Position numbers and translations under genes: made by a program. The notes below the pieces were generated by a model, which worked only from the letters and a program-made list of their open reading frames with translations, made no database searches and was not told the DNA's origin. Positions 13,145 to 36,922 of a stretch of DNA of 42,380 bases are shown here, in pieces; within the stretch, counting starts at the first letter, position 1; every line of letters starts with the position of its first letter. This DNA is from Acidobacteriaceae bacterium (GTDB lineage: Bacteria > Acidobacteriota > Terriglobia > Terriglobales > Acidobacteriaceae): the NCBI GenBank assembly GCA_003142015.1, contig PLOI01000122.1, positions 1 through 42,380 on the forward strand. The letters are read 5' to 3'.

Positions 13145-13530
13145 GGCATCCGTTCGATTGAAGCGGGCTTTCCTGCATTGTTTGCCGTGCGCGATGTACG
13201 GCGCGGCGTTCCAGCAACAAATCCAGTCAGCGCAGCGTCTATGGCATTTCCAGGATTGCTTTAACCTGAAGACAGCGCGACCAGCCAAAGCAAGCGATAT
13301 GCGTGAGAAACGCTGCCTTTCCTGCCCGAATTCTCCCTAAAAACGCGGTTTCCAGGGCTTTTTGTTTACCATTTATATAACAGGTCATTCTTCGATACCT
13401 GGCGATACTTTACTGATTCCAGATTACTTACCCTCTCAGCCGAGGCAACGATGCACTCGGATAAAGGGCGTTTTTGGAGGGAGGGGGTGGGGAGGGTGTA
13501 GGTACGGACCGGTCACATCCCGTACTCTCA
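13145..13530. other. Intergenic region with G-quadruplex-type run
   Basis: Between the 3' ends of the hydrolase (plus) and the nucleotidyltransferase-like gene (minus). No convincing gene is seen; short open frames here lack ribosome sites and family signatures. An AT-rich patch (TTTACCATTTATATAAC, about 13369-13382) stands out. At 13479-13496 four G-runs of 3-5 are separated by single bases (GGG-A-GGGGG-T-GGGG-A-GGG), a strong G-quadruplex pattern. It forms the outer edge of the dispersed repeat that follows. Confidence 0.55.
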
Positions 13531-13641
13531 CGACCTCTTTGCCCGCTCGGACCACCAATTGACATTGTACGCCGATGGAAGATAATTCTCTGCAAACGGC
13601 GCGCGAATCTCGTCGCGGATGGGAAAACGACCCTGTCGGCT
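13531..13641 (+). repeat. Dispersed repeat, copy A
   Basis: Core of 111 bases matching 29592-29702 without gaps, with 11 differences counted by eye (about 90% identity). Long shared blocks include ACCACCAATTGACATTGT and ATGGGAAAACGACCCTG. A G-rich GAGGGGGT lies about 50 bases before the core in both copies, so the full unit may be about 165-170 bases. It ends 33 bases before the stop of the minus-strand nucleotidyltransferase-like gene. Both copies contain TTGACA (here 13559-13564), a 16-base spacer and GATAAT/GATAAC (here 13581-13586), a promoter-like pair that would read antisense into the neighbouring gene. Confidence 0.85.
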
Positions 13642-13674: not shown

Positions 13675-15711
13675 TTAACGCTTCCTTTCCGGCTTGCGAG
13701 CGGCTTTCTTGACTGCGGGCTTAGCGGCCTTGGTCGGCTTTGGCCTCGGAGCAGGGACCGGCTTCTTCCTGGCAGGCGCGGACTTGGGAGCCGGGGCCTT
13801 GGGCATAGCTTTGACCGACGGCTTTGCAGTAACTTTGGCCTTGACCGGCGTTTTGGCGGGAGCCTTGGCTGGCAGCTTTCCTTTTGGAGCCGGCTTCCGG
13901 GTGGGAGCGGCTTGGGCCGGCGTGGGCCTGGACTTGGGTCGAGCAGCGGGCGTGGTTGGCTTGGCCGCTGTCGAGGCAGGTTTTGCCGTGCGCACAGCCA
14001 CTGGTTTAGATTCCGGCTTTGGTTGAGCCTTGGGCTTGGGAGCCGATTGGGGCTTCTTTGCCTCTTCCGGCCTGGACGCGGTCTTGGGCAACGGAGCCGG
14101 CTTGTCGGGCTTGGGTTGGGCCGGCGGCTTGGGAACCGGAACCGATTTGGGAGCCGATTTGGAAGCCGATTTGGGAGCCGGTTTCGGATGACGGTCCTCT
14201 TCCTCATCCTCGTCATCTCCTGCAGTAGCTTCCGATTCCTCGGTGAGGTCAACGTCCAAATCGACCTTGGGAAGGTGCAAATCGAGGCCAAGGTCATCGT
14301 CGTCTCCGCCGAGGTCGTCCAGATCCTCATCGACTTCCAGGTGGTCTTCGGGCTCATCGTCGAAGGAGTCCCCTTTCAGCTTGGCCTCGGTGCCGCGTTT
14401 GGCGCGCGGCCGCTTGATGGTGACCTGGGGCGGCGGTGCGGGCGGCGAATACGGCTCAAGGAAAGCTCGGGCTTCTTCCGGCGTGGCGAGTTTGCCATCG
14501 AGCAGCTCGAGGAAAACGGTCTGCACGATCTCATGATAAGCAGGCAATTCGGGGGTAATGCGCATCTCCTGCATCAGGGTGTGAGGAATGCGCTGGCGGG
14601 CTTCTGGCCAGACTTTGAGGAAGAGATTAAAGCGTTCCTTGACGACCGCATCCTTGCTGGTAAACCCAAGCCATAGAACTGCTTCTGGATCATAGCTCGT
14701 GAAGAGCTTGAAGCCGGCCGAAGGGATGGAATTGTGCTTGGAGAGCAGCGCCTTGGCAAATCCGGCAGCCAGCGCATCCAGGCTGCTCCACTCCTCGACA
14801 AAGCCGGGGCGCAGCATCTGCTTCTTGAGAGTGGCTAGTTCCCTGCCTGCCAGCTTGGCGGTCAGCAACCGCATCTGCGCCGCCGACATATCGGGATGGA
14901 CTCCTTGCAAGAGCAACTCAACGGCCAGATCGTGCAAGGCTGTCAGCCCAGCCTCGTCGGCCTTGGCGGAGGTCCAGGCGGGGAACAGCTCCTTCATCCA
15001 ACCTTCGGCCTCAAACGCGCGCAAAACCTTCAACCCCTCTTCCTCGTGGCCGATCTGCTCCAACTCCTGCCTGCGGGCCTGGGCAGAGAGGTGTTCGATG
15101 ACGCCCTCTTCTTTGGCGTTAACGTAGCGAGTGCGGGTCTTGGGGTCCATCTCCCAGCCGAGGCGCGCGAGGTAGCGCGTGGCGCGAATCAGCAGGGATG
15201 GCTCTTCAAGGAAACCGTAATTGGAGACCAAGCGAAGGGTCCGAGACTCGATGTCCGCAGCGCCGTTCATGGGGTCCATCAGCAGTCCGAACGAGCCTTC
15301 GTTGAGAGAGATCGCCATGGCGTTGACGGTGAAGTCGCGGCGGCGAAGCTCCTCCTGAATGGAAGCGGGATGATAGACCGGCTTGCCGGGCTTAGGATAC
15401 TCAACGCGGTGCGTGCTGATCAGGTCAACGCGAACCGTGCCGGGAAAACATAGATAAAGGGCGCGGCTGGCTTCGTCTTCACCCCACACTTTGCCGCCAC
15501 TCTTCTCTATTGTTTTCTTTAGCTTGAGCGCATTTCCATGCATCGCAACTTCAAGATCGCGAACGGCATGGCCGCTGGTCAGGTCGCGCACCGCGTCCCC
15601 GGTGAGAAACAGGATGGTGCCGACTTCGAGTGCTACCTCGCGCAAGTGGCGCAAGGCGCTCTGTTGGTCGGCTGACAGCCGGTTTTCCAGAAGATAGATG
15701 TAGTCGGGCAT
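13675..15711 (-). CDS. tRNA nucleotidyltransferase/poly(A) polymerase-like protein with charged tail
   Basis: A 678-residue protein. The head (about 1-430) is a class II CCA-adding/poly(A) polymerase fold: motif A LTGDAVRDLTSG with DLEVAMHG (about 35-57), RVDLIST (about 100), motif B RRDFTVNAMAI (about 124), then RATRYLARLGWEMD as in the dimer/RNA-binding part. The usual GGxVRD is GDAVRD and the usual DxD is DLE, so two key positions differ. The fold normally ends near 430-450; here an acidic stretch (about 448-506, runs of Asp/Glu) is followed by about 170 residues of Lys, Pro and Ala repeats like histone H1. The gene is alone on its strand. It may be a real nucleotidyltransferase with relaxed motifs or a diverged paralogue; a separate canonical CCA enzyme would have to lie outside this window. 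Confidence 0.82.
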   Translation of the reverse strand: MPDYIYLLENRLSADQQSALRHLREVALEVGTILFLTGDAVRDLTSGHAVRDLEVAMHGNALKLKKTIEKSGGKVWGEDEASRALYLCFPGTVRVDLISTHRVEYPKPGKPVYHPASIQEELRRRDFTVNAMAISLNEGSFGLLMDPMNGAADIESRTLRLVSNYGFLEEPSLLIRATRYLARLGWEMDPKTRTRYVNAKEEGVIEHLSAQARRQELEQIGHEEEGLKVLRAFEAEGWMKELFPAWTSAKADEAGLTALHDLAVELLLQGVHPDMSAAQMRLLTAKLAGRELATLKKQMLRPGFVEEWSSLDALAAGFAKALLSKHNSIPSAGFKLFTSYDPEAVLWLGFTSKDAVVKERFNLFLKVWPEARQRIPHTLMQEMRITPELPAYHEIVQTVFLELLDGKLATPEEARAFLEPYSPPAPPPQVTIKRPRAKRGTEAKLKGDSFDDEPEDHLEVDEDLDDLGGDDDDLGLDLHLPKVDLDVDLTEESEATAGDDEDEEEDRHPKPAPKSASKSAPKSVPVPKPPAQPKPDKPAPLPKTASRPEEAKKPQSAPKPKAQPKPESKPVAVRTAKPASTAAKPTTPAARPKSRPTPAQAAPTRKPAPKGKLPAKAPAKTPVKAKVTAKPSVKAMPKAPAPKSAPARKKPVPAPRPKPTKAAKPAVKKAARKPERKR

Positions 15712-29269: not shown

Positions 29270-29591
29270 GCAACAAGAAAATCAAAAAACGCAAACCACA
29301 AAACTGGGAAGTGAGTCAACTCTACTTTGCTCACTATCAGTTTTTCAACGGCAATTGTGTAAAGATGGAACAGCCCGCCTCAAATTTATCAATTCCCAAG
29401 AAAATAATGTTTACTATATCAAATATGTTTTAAGCGGGTTGTAGGCGATTTTTCTCCATCCTAATGCGGTACCTAGGCAGGCCGGGACTAAACAGGCTTT
29501 GGAGCTCACAGTTTCACAGCTTCACGGCTTATAGGGGGAGGGGGTAGCCTTTCCGTTCCCTCACGACCTCTTTCGCCACTCGAACTCTGTT
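29270..29591. other. Intergenic, AT-rich patch
   Basis: About 320 bases upstream of the zinc-ribbon gene and downstream of the TonB receptor. The stretch 29384-29440 is markedly AT-rich against the GC-rich surroundings and may hold a minus-strand promoter for the zinc-ribbon gene, although no convincing pair of boxes was found. A G-rich GAGGGGGT at 29538-29545 marks the edge of the dispersed repeat. A second, partial CGACCTCTTT of the repeat occurs at about 29564-29573. Confidence 0.45.
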
Positions 29592-29702
29592 CGACCTCTT
29601 TGCCCGCACGAACCACCAATTGACATTGTGCGCCGGTGGACGATAACTCTCTGCAAACCGGGCGCGAATCCCGCCGCGGATGGGAAAACGACCCTGACGG
29701 CT
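29592..29702 (+). repeat. Dispersed repeat, copy B
   Basis: The partner of 13531-13641 in the same orientation, with 11 differences in 111 bases by eye. It keeps TTGACA (29620-29625), a 16-base spacer and GATAAC (29642-29647). Like copy A it lies just 3' of a minus-strand gene, here the TonB receptor, but beyond that gene's terminator hairpin. It differs from A by an extra partial duplication of its left end. Confidence 0.85.
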
Positions 29703-29784: not shown

Positions 29785-32700
29785 TTAGAAATTAAAGCGG
29801 GCTGCAATTTCAACTTGCCGCGGTGTGTAAAGCCAGCTGCTGTTGTTTGAGCTGTTGACCACTCCGAAGCCGGAGTTGGTAGTTCCAGGCTGCCCCTGGA
29901 ACGTCGCAGTGGTTCCCTTAAATATGTATGCAGTGGTGGTCGTATAACCATCGACGTTCTGGTGGTTGGCAACGTTGAAAGCGTTGAGCATGAGTTGCAC
30001 GCTGCGGCCCTTCTCGAAGGAGATCCTCTTCTGAAGGCGCGCGTCGTCGACCATCTTGCGCGGATACCTCATCGTATTCCGCCCGATCATAGGAATGACA
30101 GAGGAGCCTCCAGCGCCATTCCAGTCAGTGAATTTCGAGTTAGAAATATCCCCGCTAACGCCTGCTGTCCAAGGCAACCCGTTCTGCGCCTGGAAGCTGT
30201 CGTTCAGGCTCCAGTCGTTGACCAGGATCCGTGAGACCCAATTGTTTGAGTGGATGTTTGGGAGGTTATAGAGCGCATAGGCCACGAACCTGTTAGGAAC
30301 GTTGTAGGCGGAGTCGCCGTAGTTGACGCGGGGATTCGCGTAAGGATCGTACCAACTGTTCACCGCGCCCTGTGTGGTGGCGTTCTGCGAGAAATCCAGT
30401 GCGTGTGACCATGTGTAGCTGGCGTCGAACTGAATGCTCTTGAGTGAGCGATTGAGAACCTCGACCACACCGGCATTGTAGTTCGAATTAATATTGCTGA
30501 CTACCTCGGTAATAGACTGGTAGTCCGTGGCCACAGAGCCTAAAAGGTTCGTGTTGCCAAATTTTGTATAGATTGAAGTCGGGTAGGTCGTTCCCGTCGC
30601 CCCAAGAGGTCCCTTTCCGGAAGCATCAGAGATGGTAATCGTCTCCGCCGCCTTGGTGGTGGGATCGAGGTTGACGTCGAGGTAGTTGGGCAATTCGCGG
30701 CCCAAGGCTCCCAGGTAGCTCAACTGAACGAAGGTGCCCTTGCCAATTCCCTGCTGCACCATCAGGTCGTACTCCTGCACGTCGGGGTTGCGCAGTGAGG
30801 GAGACAGGAAGTAAGAGGTTGGCACAATGGGGGTGGTGCTTCCCGACACGATATTCGGGAACTGCGGAGCGCCAGCGGTGGTTGATGTCCAAGACGGGGA
30901 GATTTGCCCGAGAGGACTGCCGGTGCCGAGCCGCGCCTGGAGCAGGTTTCCGTTGGTGATGCGGCCGTAATAAATACCATAGCCGCCGCGCACAACCGTA
31001 TTGCCCTTGCCGGTGACATCATAGGAAAATCCGATGCGCGGCCCGAAGTTCGTTTTGTCGGTGGGGCTGTTATTCAGGCCGGGGTAGGGGACAAAGGTGA
31101 TGCCGTCCGCGGTAGCGGCGGTAGTGAGCGCGGAAACGGGACCGGGCAGAGCCTCATAGTCCCAGCGTAGGCCGAGTTCCATGGTCAGGCGTGGAGTCAC
31201 CTTCCAGTTATCTTGGACAAAGAGTCCAGTGTCCATCGTGGAAATGGAAAAGGTCGGAGTACCAAATCCCTGACCGAAACTGTAGTAACAGGGATCGGGT
31301 CCAAGCGTCCCGGTGCCATTCTCGTATCCGCCCGCGCTACAGCCGAGCTTTTTGGCGGTCACCTGAGCAGGGGTCAGGCCGTTCTTGAAGTTGAGTTCAT
31401 CGTTCATGTAGTTGCCGAGGTAGTTATAGGAGTAAGCGCCGTTGCTCTCGTAGAGATCGTTCTGGAAATCGTAGTTGTGAACCATGTCCACGCCCATCTT
31501 CAGGCTGTGATTGCCGTGGTTCCAATAGAGGACGTCGCCGACTTGCCACTTATTCTCGAGAGGATAAGCAACTCGGAAAGAGTAATAGGGCGCGCCGGCT
31601 CCAAAGCCGTCATAATATGACGTCGAGTTCTGCACAATGTTTCCGTTGGTCGCCAGGTCAGCCAGGGTATAGGGAGTGGGCTGCTGTAAAGTGTCGGCAT
31701 TCAGCTCGCGGCCATACTGGTAGAGCAGCTCATTGCCGATGTTCGAGGTAATGAGGCTGGTGAGCTTGATCACGCCGTAGTCCAGCTTGACGTAATCGTT
31801 GCCCTGATAATCCTTCGCATCTTCGTCCACCGGGTTGGTTTGTGTGCCGCCGGGCGAGTCCCAACGCATGCGATTGTAGAGAACGCTCAGATGCTGCTTG
31901 GAGTTGACCTGCCAGTCCAGCTTGGGCAGGTTGATCTCCTGGAATCCCTTGCGCCCGACTTGCCCAATGTCCGAGTCCATACCCAGATCGCTGATTGGGG
32001 CTATTCCCGTGCCCGCTGTGACATTGGCGCTGCCTTGCATCATGGCGGTCCAGTCGTAAGCCGCCTGGTTGTAGGACACCGCCTGGCGAGCGGCCAGTGT
32101 GCAGGTGTCGGCATCGTTCAAGCTGCCTGCGGTTGTACCCGGTGTTAACGTAAGAATGCCAGTCGTCGCGTTGCAGGATTCTCCTGCGGGCATCAAGGCA
32201 GTCGTTGCAGTCGGCAGAGTGTAGAAGACCGGCAGATTGTACGGAACGCCATCTACCGGGAAGATGTGGGTCTGTTGATCATAGGTATAGATCCAGAAGA
32301 GCTTGTCTTTGACCAGCGCGCCGCCGACGGTGAAGCCGTAGATCTTGCGTATGTCCTCCGGCTTGAATTTGACACTGGTACTGACACCGTTAGCGAGCAC
32401 CGGCTCGGTGTAGTAATCGTTCATGGCGTTCCAGTTGCTTTCGCGATCCCAGAAGTAGGCCTCGCCATGAAGCTGGTTGGTGCCGCTCTTGGTGACGGAA
32501 GTGATGACGCCGCCAGCGGCACGGCCATACTGAGCCGAATAGACGCCGGTGTTGACGGCAAATTCGCGAACCGCGCCTCCCGAAGTAGAATAGGCAACGC
32601 GGCTGCGCCCGCGCTCTTCAGAAAACATGGCTTGGTTGTCGTCGGCGCCGTCAATCTCGACGTTGTTGAGCAGCGGGCTGATGCCACGGACAGCGACGAG

Positions 32701-33234
32701 ACCGTAGCCGCTGGCGTCCGATACAACGCCCGGTGTGGTCATGGCCAGACTGGACCAGCGGCGGTTGTTGATGGGGATCTCTTGCAGCGCTCTGGCATTC
32801 AACGACTCGCTGAAGTCCGGCGACTCGAGATTCACCACGGGCGCCTGCTCGATAACCTCGACGGAGGACGAGGACGCGCCGACCGTGAGGCGCGGCAGAA
32901 GACTGGAAACCTGGCCGACCTGAACAATCACGTTATCGGCGTGATAGGTGGAAAAGCCGGGCGCGGAAAACGTGACCCTGTATGTGCCGGGCTCGAGCAA
33001 GGGAGCCTTGAAAAAGCCGCTGGCGTCGCTGGTCAGCTTGATTTCGGCGTTGGTTCCCATGTTGTGGATGGTGACGGCCGCGCCACTGACTACGGCCCCG
33101 GAGGGATCAGTAACTGTCCCAGCGATGGAACCTTCGGTGGAGGTCTGCGCGTGCAGGGCAACCGTGCCCAGGCACACGAAGAGGGTGAGGATCATCAGGC
33201 AGAAAATGCTCTGACGTATTCGTTTGATCGTCAT
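29785..33234 (-). CDS. TonB-dependent receptor, Oar-like
   Basis: A 1149-residue outer-membrane receptor. Signal peptide about 1-29 (cleavage after TVALHAQ). CarboxypepD_reg-like domain about 33-120 (GSIAGTVTDPSGAVVSGA). Plug about 125-250 with RRWSSLAMTTPGVV and the NVEIDGADDNQ stretch. A large barrel follows, with FGPRIGFSYDVTGKGNTVVRGG typical of Oar-like receptors, ending EIAARFNF with a terminal Phe. The ribosome site GGAGAG precedes the ATG. A sigma70-like promoter is seen about 200 bases upstream. In Acidobacteria this family is very large and is thought to take up plant polymers or other large substrates; the ligand here is unknown. Confidence 0.93.
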   Translation of the reverse strand: MTIKRIRQSIFCLMILTLFVCLGTVALHAQTSTEGSIAGTVTDPSGAVVSGAAVTIHNMGTNAEIKLTSDASGFFKAPLLEPGTYRVTFSAPGFSTYHADNVIVQVGQVSSLLPRLTVGASSSSVEVIEQAPVVNLESPDFSESLNARALQEIPINNRRWSSLAMTTPGVVSDASGYGLVAVRGISPLLNNVEIDGADDNQAMFSEERGRSRVAYSTSGGAVREFAVNTGVYSAQYGRAAGGVITSVTKSGTNQLHGEAYFWDRESNWNAMNDYYTEPVLANGVSTSVKFKPEDIRKIYGFTVGGALVKDKLFWIYTYDQQTHIFPVDGVPYNLPVFYTLPTATTALMPAGESCNATTGILTLTPGTTAGSLNDADTCTLAARQAVSYNQAAYDWTAMMQGSANVTAGTGIAPISDLGMDSDIGQVGRKGFQEINLPKLDWQVNSKQHLSVLYNRMRWDSPGGTQTNPVDEDAKDYQGNDYVKLDYGVIKLTSLITSNIGNELLYQYGRELNADTLQQPTPYTLADLATNGNIVQNSTSYYDGFGAGAPYYSFRVAYPLENKWQVGDVLYWNHGNHSLKMGVDMVHNYDFQNDLYESNGAYSYNYLGNYMNDELNFKNGLTPAQVTAKKLGCSAGGYENGTGTLGPDPCYYSFGQGFGTPTFSISTMDTGLFVQDNWKVTPRLTMELGLRWDYEALPGPVSALTTAATADGITFVPYPGLNNSPTDKTNFGPRIGFSYDVTGKGNTVVRGGYGIYYGRITNGNLLQARLGTGSPLGQISPSWTSTTAGAPQFPNIVSGSTTPIVPTSYFLSPSLRNPDVQEYDLMVQQGIGKGTFVQLSYLGALGRELPNYLDVNLDPTTKAAETITISDASGKGPLGATGTTYPTSIYTKFGNTNLLGSVATDYQSITEVVSNINSNYNAGVVEVLNRSLKSIQFDASYTWSHALDFSQNATTQGAVNSWYDPYANPRVNYGDSAYNVPNRFVAYALYNLPNIHSNNWVSRILVNDWSLNDSFQAQNGLPWTAGVSGDISNSKFTDWNGAGGSSVIPMIGRNTMRYPRKMVDDARLQKRISFEKGRSVQLMLNAFNVANHQNVDGYTTTTAYIFKGTTATFQGQPGTTNSGFGVVNSSNNSSWLYTPRQVEIAARFNF

Positions 33235-36385: not shown

Positions 36386-36424
36386 GAGGCTCCTTCGTTC
36401 CCCTCGGAACGCAAGCGGGTTGAG

Positions 36425-36675
36425 GGCGCGAGGACCGGTCTCCTGACTTGCGCCTTTCCCAGCCACCTTCCCACAGGCGCGCGCAAAGGCTCGTCCTGCA
36501 GTGGTTAACTAAGGGCTTCCGCCAATGGCGAAAATACCCTGGCTGGTTCCCTGCCCTGACCAATAGAACGGCCTGTTGGGCAGGGGCGCTCACAGTTGCG
36601 GGGCAGTGGCGGAGTTTCACCGCCTTCCCGAGCATCCTGGCGATTGCCGTGATGAATTGGCTGACCTTTGCGGGG
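36425..36675 (-). ncRNA. Cobalamin riboswitch
   Basis: Read on the minus strand the aptamer landmarks appear in order: GGGAAGGCGGTGAAACTCCG, the core CCACTGCCCCGCAACTGTGAG, then GGGAAGGTGGC, and the B12 box AAGTCAGGAGACCGGTC at 36433-36449. The B12 box ends about 48 bases before the start codon, and a GTTCC/GGAAC hairpin (36397-36410) sits between it and the Shine-Dalgarno site, so control of translation is plausible. The family represses uptake or synthesis genes when adenosylcobalamin or a related corrinoid is abundant. Outer boundaries are approximate. Confidence 0.95.
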
Positions 36676-36845: not shown

Positions 36846-36922
36846 TGGTGACCCCGGGAAGACTCGAACTTCCGACACGCAGTTTAGGAAACTGCTGCTC
36901 TATCCACCTGAGCTACGGGGCC
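36846..36922 (-). tRNA. tRNA-Arg (anticodon CCU)
   Basis: A complete cloverleaf on the minus strand: acceptor GGCCCCG/CGGGGTC, D-arm with AGCTCAGGTGGATAGAGC, anticodon stem GCAGT/ACTGC with loop TTCCTAA (anticodon CCT), T-arm with GTTCGAGTC, and an encoded CCA end at 36846-36848. The integrase gene begins about 110 bases from its 5' end. Confidence 0.96.

Follow-up and report, generated by a model that had tools for sequence, protein, structure and literature searches.

The 33-bp site carried by two repeat copies in the window (the whole analysed stretch of 42,380 nucleotides from an Acidobacteriaceae bacterium) is, on sequence comparison, a member of a genus-wide family of short, intergenic sites in soil Acidobacteria. 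We consider that the site probably, by a slight balance of the evidence, represents a promoter class specific to the Terracidiphilus-type Acidobacteriaceae and directed leftward, i.e., along the minus strand of the window, with both transcription and its direction being part of this proposal. Few groups of bacteria are as common in soil as the Acidobacteria, and the site supplies a concrete handle on their transcription; at stake is whether it constitutes a new promoter class with hidden small RNAs or a chromosomal protein-binding site. Within the part of the matching literature that was screened, we found no study of Acidobacteria transcription starts, promoter motifs or small RNAs, which does not exclude one elsewhere.

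The two copies of the repeat in the window run in the same direction and align without gaps over 111 nt, with 11 differences (90% identity), as first claimed from inspection and confirmed here by a recount and by BLAST (E = 1.3e-37 between the two). Each copy indeed follows the 3' end of an unrelated minus-strand gene, a PolyA_pol-domain protein (13675-15711) for copy 1 and an outer-membrane beta-barrel/TonB-type protein (29785-33234) for copy 2; an alpha/beta hydrolase and a GroEL-type chaperonin, respectively, are the other neighbours, and both copies are situated between convergent genes. No gene was called inside the repeat in the window by our own simple gene-calling script. Between the two copies the core is no better kept than the remainder (4 differences in 33 positions versus 7 in 78), and a further repeat layer (13520-13552 and 29553-29585, 82%) overlaps the 111-bp pair. 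By comparison across the wider family, through which alone it can be defined, the preserved unit is the 33-bp core and not the 111 bp. The coordinates of these features are collected in the table. The window additionally contains a cobalamin riboswitch (36415-36655, minus strand) and a nearby tRNA-Arg(cct) gene (36846-36922, minus strand), and searches against plasmid DNA and phage proteins returned no match.

Table. Positions of the repeat copies, cores, boxes and associated features in the window
Feature	Position	Strand	Basis
111-bp repeat copy 1 (local duplicate bearing the core)	13531..13641		11 differences to copy 2
111-bp repeat copy 2	29592..29702		pairwise match to copy 1
33-bp core copy 1, TTTGCAGAGAATTATCTTCCATCGGCGTACAAT	13564..13596	-	family profile; model E=1.6e-8
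33-bp core copy 2, TTTGCAGAGAGTTATCGTCCACCGGCGCACAAT	29625..29657	-	family profile; model E=4.9e-8
Box 1 copy 1 (TTTGCAGAGAATTA)	13583..13596	-	two-box pattern, 1 mismatch over both boxes
Box 2 copy 1, -10-like (TACAAT)	13564..13569	-	two-box pattern
Box 1 copy 2 (TTTGCAGAGAGTTA)	29644..29657	-	two-box pattern, 1 mismatch over both boxes
Box 2 copy 2, -10-like (CACAAT)	29625..29630	-	two-box pattern
Predicted transcription start copy 1, 7 nt past core; T where the family prefers A	13557	-	predicted from +7 base bias
Predicted transcription start copy 2, also T	29618	-	predicted from +7 base bias
G-rich run copy 1 (C-rich on leftward strand)	13476..13498	+	sequence; family C-run statistic
G-rich run copy 2 (C-rich on leftward strand)	29534..29545	+	sequence; family C-run statistic

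An alignment of 78 distinct sites reveals the 33-bp site (plus strand ATTGTGCGCCnnnGGaGGgTAATTnTCtGCAA(a)) as a sharply bounded block set in near-random flanks. The sites were first obtained with a pattern and then with a model built on 64/75 distinct cores, which biases the columns of the pattern but not columns 25-32; the GCAA columns at the core end are kept in 75-78 of the 78 sites though absent from the search pattern. With up to two mismatches the core pattern matched 26 of 59 genus genomes and its reversed version none, and the sequence-only model found matches in 32 of 36 genus genomes as against 2 of 24 more distant ones, both of the latter at E 0.03-0.05. Searched strictly in a collection of 84,980 species, the pattern yielded 55 stretches, all from records titled Terracidiphilus (placed by NCBI under Occallatibacter), Acidobacteriaceae or Acidobacteria. 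Referring to genomes and loci by our own G and L numbers, the model recovers 42-46 copies in the genome of the window (G000) and 87-91 in a relative (G021), while the two-box search described below recovers 40 in G000, where BLAST also returns further partial matches of 33-66 nt with E below 1e-4. The further copies anticipated in the original prediction are thus numerous in both the genome and the genus, and the window pair does not stand alone. With a single mismatch each to the two-box pattern, the window copies are ordinary members of the family. Folding of 64 cores gave a consensus energy of -0.06 kcal/mol with three pairs and no compensatory change, and no Rfam match was obtained at the element, either in the window at the gathering threshold or at 38 loci (20 + 18) at lax thresholds. 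No description of the element was found in the part of the matching papers screened, nor, by title and among part of the matches, did a search with the site letters TTGTGCGCC return a bacterial intergenic repeat.

The sites avoid genes. Among 170 distinct sites none overlaps a predicted gene, versus 78% of 10,500 random 33-bp windows drawn from the window and 20 pieces of G002, the gene calls coming from the same simple script; this extends to the family the absence of an ORF first remarked on for the window repeat. Likewise, 52 of 53 distinct two-box sites lie outside predicted genes and one overlaps a gene (53 being a recount that removes a duplicate entry, L429/L465). Read leftward, the site has a co-directional upstream gene in 92 of 157 and 36 of 53 cases, i.e., 128/210 (p=0.0018), with a few sites possibly in both sets. 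Sites therefore prefer to follow a gene end, modestly; the proposed preference for gene 3' ends is real in this limited degree, and placement is other than random. Gene strands around the sites are balanced in a check of replication polarity, and the GC skew of G002 over 20 sampled 20-kb pieces was too noisy for use.

Read on the minus strand, the core resolves into Box 1 (TTTGCAGAtAATTA) and, 14 nt on, Box 2 (CACAAT). With this gap the two-box pattern has 123 matches in nine genomes (G000 40, G002 20, G017 17, G005 13, G020 13, G010 9, G004 8, G001 3, G008 0), as compared with one for the reversed control and five for the same pattern with a 15-nt gap. Neither the model nor the two-box search finds a site in G008, and in G001 the model finds none and the three two-box matches have two mismatches. 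A gap of 14 is seen in 60 of 64 near-matches at stand-alone sites, these loci having mostly been chosen with that gap. The boxes exist in species-specific versions, such as TTGCACAAAATTA...GCCACACT in G005 and TTGCAAAGAATTA...ATATGCCACACT in G020. CACAAT retains the second A and the last T of a -10 element, and the distance from TTGCAG to CACAAT, at 19-20 nt, is too long for an ordinary sigma-70 promoter. Separately, in some copies of the own genome (L072, L159, L181) a second TTGCAG.TAATTA-like motif, resembling Box 1 and unaccompanied by Box 2, occurs beyond the C-rich run described below.

As expected of a promoter, the two boxes precede genes at a constrained spacing, and the genes concerned are a restricted set encoding small proteins. 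All nine sites with a gene start within 83 nt leftward precede either ribbon-helix-helix-like (RHH-like) genes (five) or members of a family here termed FIACA (four). From Box 2 to the gene start, the distance at FIACA and RHH-like genes is 16-88 nt, which leaves little room for another promoter. FIACA is a small helical protein family of the genus (L228-L257, L424, L459), many members of which have the two-box site upstream. A homology search over 41 genomes listed 40 matches, and the two boxes (up to two mismatches, within 450 nt upstream) are present at 16 of the 30 loci examined versus none of 150 shuffled upstream regions, with the gap being 14 in 11, 13 in four and 12 in one; this test used the gene strand only and measured distances to the start of the homology match and not to the start codon. 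The 14 loci devoid of boxes are mostly weaker homologues. A scan of both strands upstream of FIACA genes recovers the site in the orientation of a leftward promoter, and in these upstream regions the ends of the site (TTTGCAGAtAATTA, gap, CACAAT) are kept and the middle is free.

FIACA has no match in Pfam, NCBIfam, PHROG or PADLOC and no sequence relative in the PDB. Its predicted structure comprises four helices (pLDDT 81), for which Foldseek returned no match better than E 0.6, while the best hit of a second structural comparison (VIA; Z 6.4, rmsd 6.2, 88 aligned) says little for a helical bundle. In three of the four RHH-like proteins scanned the DUF6364/RHH matches fall below the curated cut-offs, and L057 was assigned by eye only. 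Farther off, a third family (CRH), whose N-terminus is rich in Cys and His (CRHILP...CYFH) and which also has a conserved LLYALQIAS stretch, starts 196-395 nt from the site at five loci (L087, L088, L089, L103, L368), with relatives lacking the Cys/His N-terminus at L376 (326 nt) and L182 (257 nt from the site). CRH has no match in Pfam, NCBIfam or PADLOC and an insignificant one in PHROG (E 0.23), and its structure model (pLDDT 42) is too poor for use. A common origin of FIACA and CRH is weakly hinted at by profile comparison (hhalign probability 16%, E 0.0017).

A further indication comes from the bases that follow Box 2. Reading leftward, the seventh base after the core is A at a frequency of 0.68 (0.55 without G021), and an ATG begins at this position in 60 of 195 sites (31 of 137 without G021) versus 0-6 sites at each of 15 other offsets; copies within one genome are related and hence not independent in this statistic. 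The few +7 ATG frames read by eye are short. A start six nt past the -10 element is the usual promoter geometry, and the excess of A and ATG at +7 is supportive of a start there while falling short of proof. Since the 12 bases that follow the core show bias at further positions as well, the A at +7 may belong to a longer site. Both window copies may be weak or decayed as starts, because they carry T at the predicted position.

Two species, G005 and G020, have a short A-rich leader after the site and then, about 16 nt on, a GC-rich hairpin with a T-run. A terminator-like hairpin within 110 nt on the Box 2 side is present at 9 of 12 G005 sites and 6 of 9 G020 sites (shuffle means 0.04 and 0.08), and none is present on the Box 1 side in these two sets. 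Across the 17 aligned sequences, out of 21 from both genomes (L432, L452, L458 and L437, which show no clear hairpin, were omitted), 8 of the 11 stem pairs change on both sides. Folding z-scores for the first 60 nt average -4.2 and -4.3 in G005 and G020, as against -0.9 to +0.8 in nine other sets. The opposite strand is also terminator-like (9/12 in G005 and 8/9 in G020; z-scores -3.4 and -4.2) because an A-run precedes the hairpin. With tails on both strands, the hairpin marks the Box 2 side and not the direction of transcription, which reduced our confidence in a leftward promoter from reasonably good to only just favourable. At the G005 FIACA gene L459 the start codon is separated from the boxes by the hairpin, a placement resembling that of an attenuator, and the hairpin is likewise placed, by eye, at L424, a G005 FIACA locus with a stop codon within the match. 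Elsewhere such hairpins are scarce: with strict criteria no leftward terminator is found within 350 nt at any of 191 sites in G000, G021 and relatives, laxer criteria give 8 of 191 within 110 nt, and the counts are 0/17 in G002 and 2/12 in G017. The hairpin sequence is not conserved between species. As an aside, positions 155-265 of L455 contain two tandem matches to the nadA riboswitch.

Several other species show a C-rich run on the leftward strand, which occurs within 250 nt of the core at 67 of 191 sites (53 of these at 44-96 nt) versus 16 of 191 on the other strand, and is common in G000 (24/35) and rare in G021 (3/58). This run is the complement of the G-rich tract noted from the window alone, where GAGGGGGT does begin 50 and 54 bases before the two copies (at 13481 and 29538).

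These features can be accommodated in a scheme in which Box 1 would lie over the -35 region, followed after a gap of 14 nt (13 or 14 at genes) by Box 2 as a -10-like element (CACAAT/CACACT), with transcription predicted to begin about 7 nt beyond it. The long TTGCAG-CACAAT distance, the breadth of Box 1 and the near-fixed gap suggest that the site could be recognised by an alternative sigma factor or, over the -35 region, by an activator. A minority of copies would drive small genes, namely those for the RHH-like and FIACA proteins and, farther off, CRH. Most stand-alone sites have no recognisable driven gene; at these intergenic copies a short RNA might end at the hairpin some 45-50 nt on in the two hairpin-bearing species, and in several others might run into the C-rich stretch. 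In the window, transcription would proceed leftward from about 13557 and 29618. More speculatively, each genome might possess tens to about 90 orphan intergenic short-RNA units under one promoter class that drifts by species together with its recognition factor, with small-protein families co-driven and an attenuator-like hairpin in at least one species; we regard this fuller picture as possible but rather doubtful.

The leading alternative is that the site is bound by a genus-specific protein, as an operator, a gene-end mark or a chromosome-organising site, which regulates a few small genes, initiates no transcription at the stand-alone copies and is coupled in G005 and G020 to a two-way terminator. 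Unlikely as an account of the whole, it is a serious rival where the stand-alone copies are concerned. Such a protein could explain the long, asymmetric core devoid of RNA structure, and its footprint would suit the near-fixed 14-nt gap of the stand-alone copies equally well, but a gap of 13 besides 14 at FIACA genes fits it less readily. The persistence of sites beside the same gene across species (see below), the species-specific box versions and a hairpin serving both strands are all compatible with binding, whereas the A and ATG excess at +7 and the position of the boxes 16-88 nt before the FIACA and RHH-like start codons point to initiation.

The distribution of sites across genomes bears on a second alternative, a non-autonomous mobile repeat of the MITE or REP type, with the core as its recognition end and the promoter features incidental. 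In nine groups, sites from different genomes share a neighbouring gene as well as their side of it and their orientation, window copy 1 and a G035 site, which both adjoin a PolyA_pol gene, being an example; 3 of the 8 G035 sites match G000 sites, with a rough probability of 5e-4 if about 3,400 genes are assumed. In 7 of the 10 cross-genome pairs compared, the flanks resemble each other little or no more than those of unrelated pairs, and the cores of orthologous pairs (24-32 of 33 identical) are about as similar as any two cores (78%), such that the informative part is the shared gene neighbour only, and independent arrival beside the same gene is conceivable. Four further pairs (L055/L058, L103/L129, L166/L183, L223/L054) share a neighbouring gene but differ in the orientation of the site or in the side of the gene on which it lies. 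Two cores from one genome resemble each other more than two from different genomes do (mid-site 0.71 versus 0.58), and in G021 a stretch of 323 nt around the core can be aligned over 56 copies. The shared-gene groups, the flipped pairs, the G021 alignment and the within-genome likeness together suggest that a site can keep its gene neighbour over long periods, and that sites have also spread or been homogenised within lineages.

Mobility would readily explain the last three of these observations, as well as the mosaic flanks and the occurrence of several sites at contig ends, but it fits poorly with the nine groups of fixed side and orientation, with a common part of only 33 bp in near-random flanks, with a core that forms no hairpin and with RAYT genes that show no clear association; accordingly we hold it to be quite improbable. 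Some loci are more elaborate: L225 (G031:C2, 18247-18665) has three tandem cores spaced at about 190 bp next to an RHH-like gene, and the 3.5 kb around them also include a RAYT gene. The hypervariable spacer 5' of the core contains heptad repeats (e.g., GGGAATAGGGAATAG and CAGTGGTCAGT; L003, L005, L159 and others), which we take to resemble the heptameric repeats of cyanobacteria.

Overall, the interpretation in the original prediction is partly supported. It posited a rightward promoter (TTGACA, 16 bases, then GATAAT or GATAAC) reading into the minus-strand neighbour as antisense RNA. Those letters are present in copies 1 and 2, and a promoter is likely in kind, but TTGACA falls in the near-random flank columns of the 78 aligned sites and GATAAT falls within a box whose better reading is on the opposite strand. 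Transcription in the favoured leftward direction would lead away from that minus-strand gene and hence yield no antisense RNA to it. A rightward sigma-70 promoter is thus highly implausible, given that a promoter scan scored copy 1 at 11/12 but gave copy 2 no score, that TTGACA is missing from the family profile and that no columns are conserved past the core rightward. An insertion sequence was rejected for want of a transposase ORF in the gene-free window repeat or at any of the 170 sites.

Returning to the leftward promoter, comparison with known systems helps to place the site. The available text of a comparative genomics paper on Acidobacteria (PMC5900883) contains neither "intergenic" nor "sigma factor" and has "repeat" once. 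The Correia/NEMIS elements of Neisseria are reported to be short dispersed repeats with putative promoters, about 105-155 bp long with 24-bp terminal inverted repeats, the longer form having an IHF site and being almost only intergenic (PMC2229807). On that description, the present sites are comparably short, dispersed, promoter-like and intergenic, but differ in sharing 33 bp only, in having no terminal repeat that we could see and in their same-gene neighbours across species. As regards a MITE, for which terminal inverted repeats and a target-site duplication would be expected, conservation in the profile stops abruptly at the 33-bp core and no inverted counterpart occurs.

REPs have been listed for Granulicella and two other Acidobacteriota (PMC12306157). 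The REP/RAYT (TnpA-REP) systems and the present family both consist of dispersed, extragenic short sites, but the core here has no palindrome (64 cores). Among the 41 genomes searched, a set without G031, G000 has 10 Y1_Tnp matches, one of them within 1 kb of a core (about 0.3 expected by our own arithmetic); a motif scan places Y1_Tnp genes near the core at L165 (G000) and L225 (G031), and RAYT genes also occur in genomes in which the model has no match. The RAYT/REP link was dropped as unproven.

Intrinsic terminators, attenuators and small RNAs share with the G005 and G020 sites, the FIACA locus L459 included, the GC-rich hairpin after the site, but the tails on both strands, the lack of hairpin conservation between species and the lack of an Rfam match set the latter apart. 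To our knowledge the boxes are unlike the ECF or sigma-54 consensus. Although most of the sites, unlike alternative-sigma promoters, have no close downstream gene, they resemble ECF-type and activator-dependent promoters in the constrained gap between two boxes, in the defined gene set that these precede and in having versions specific to each species.
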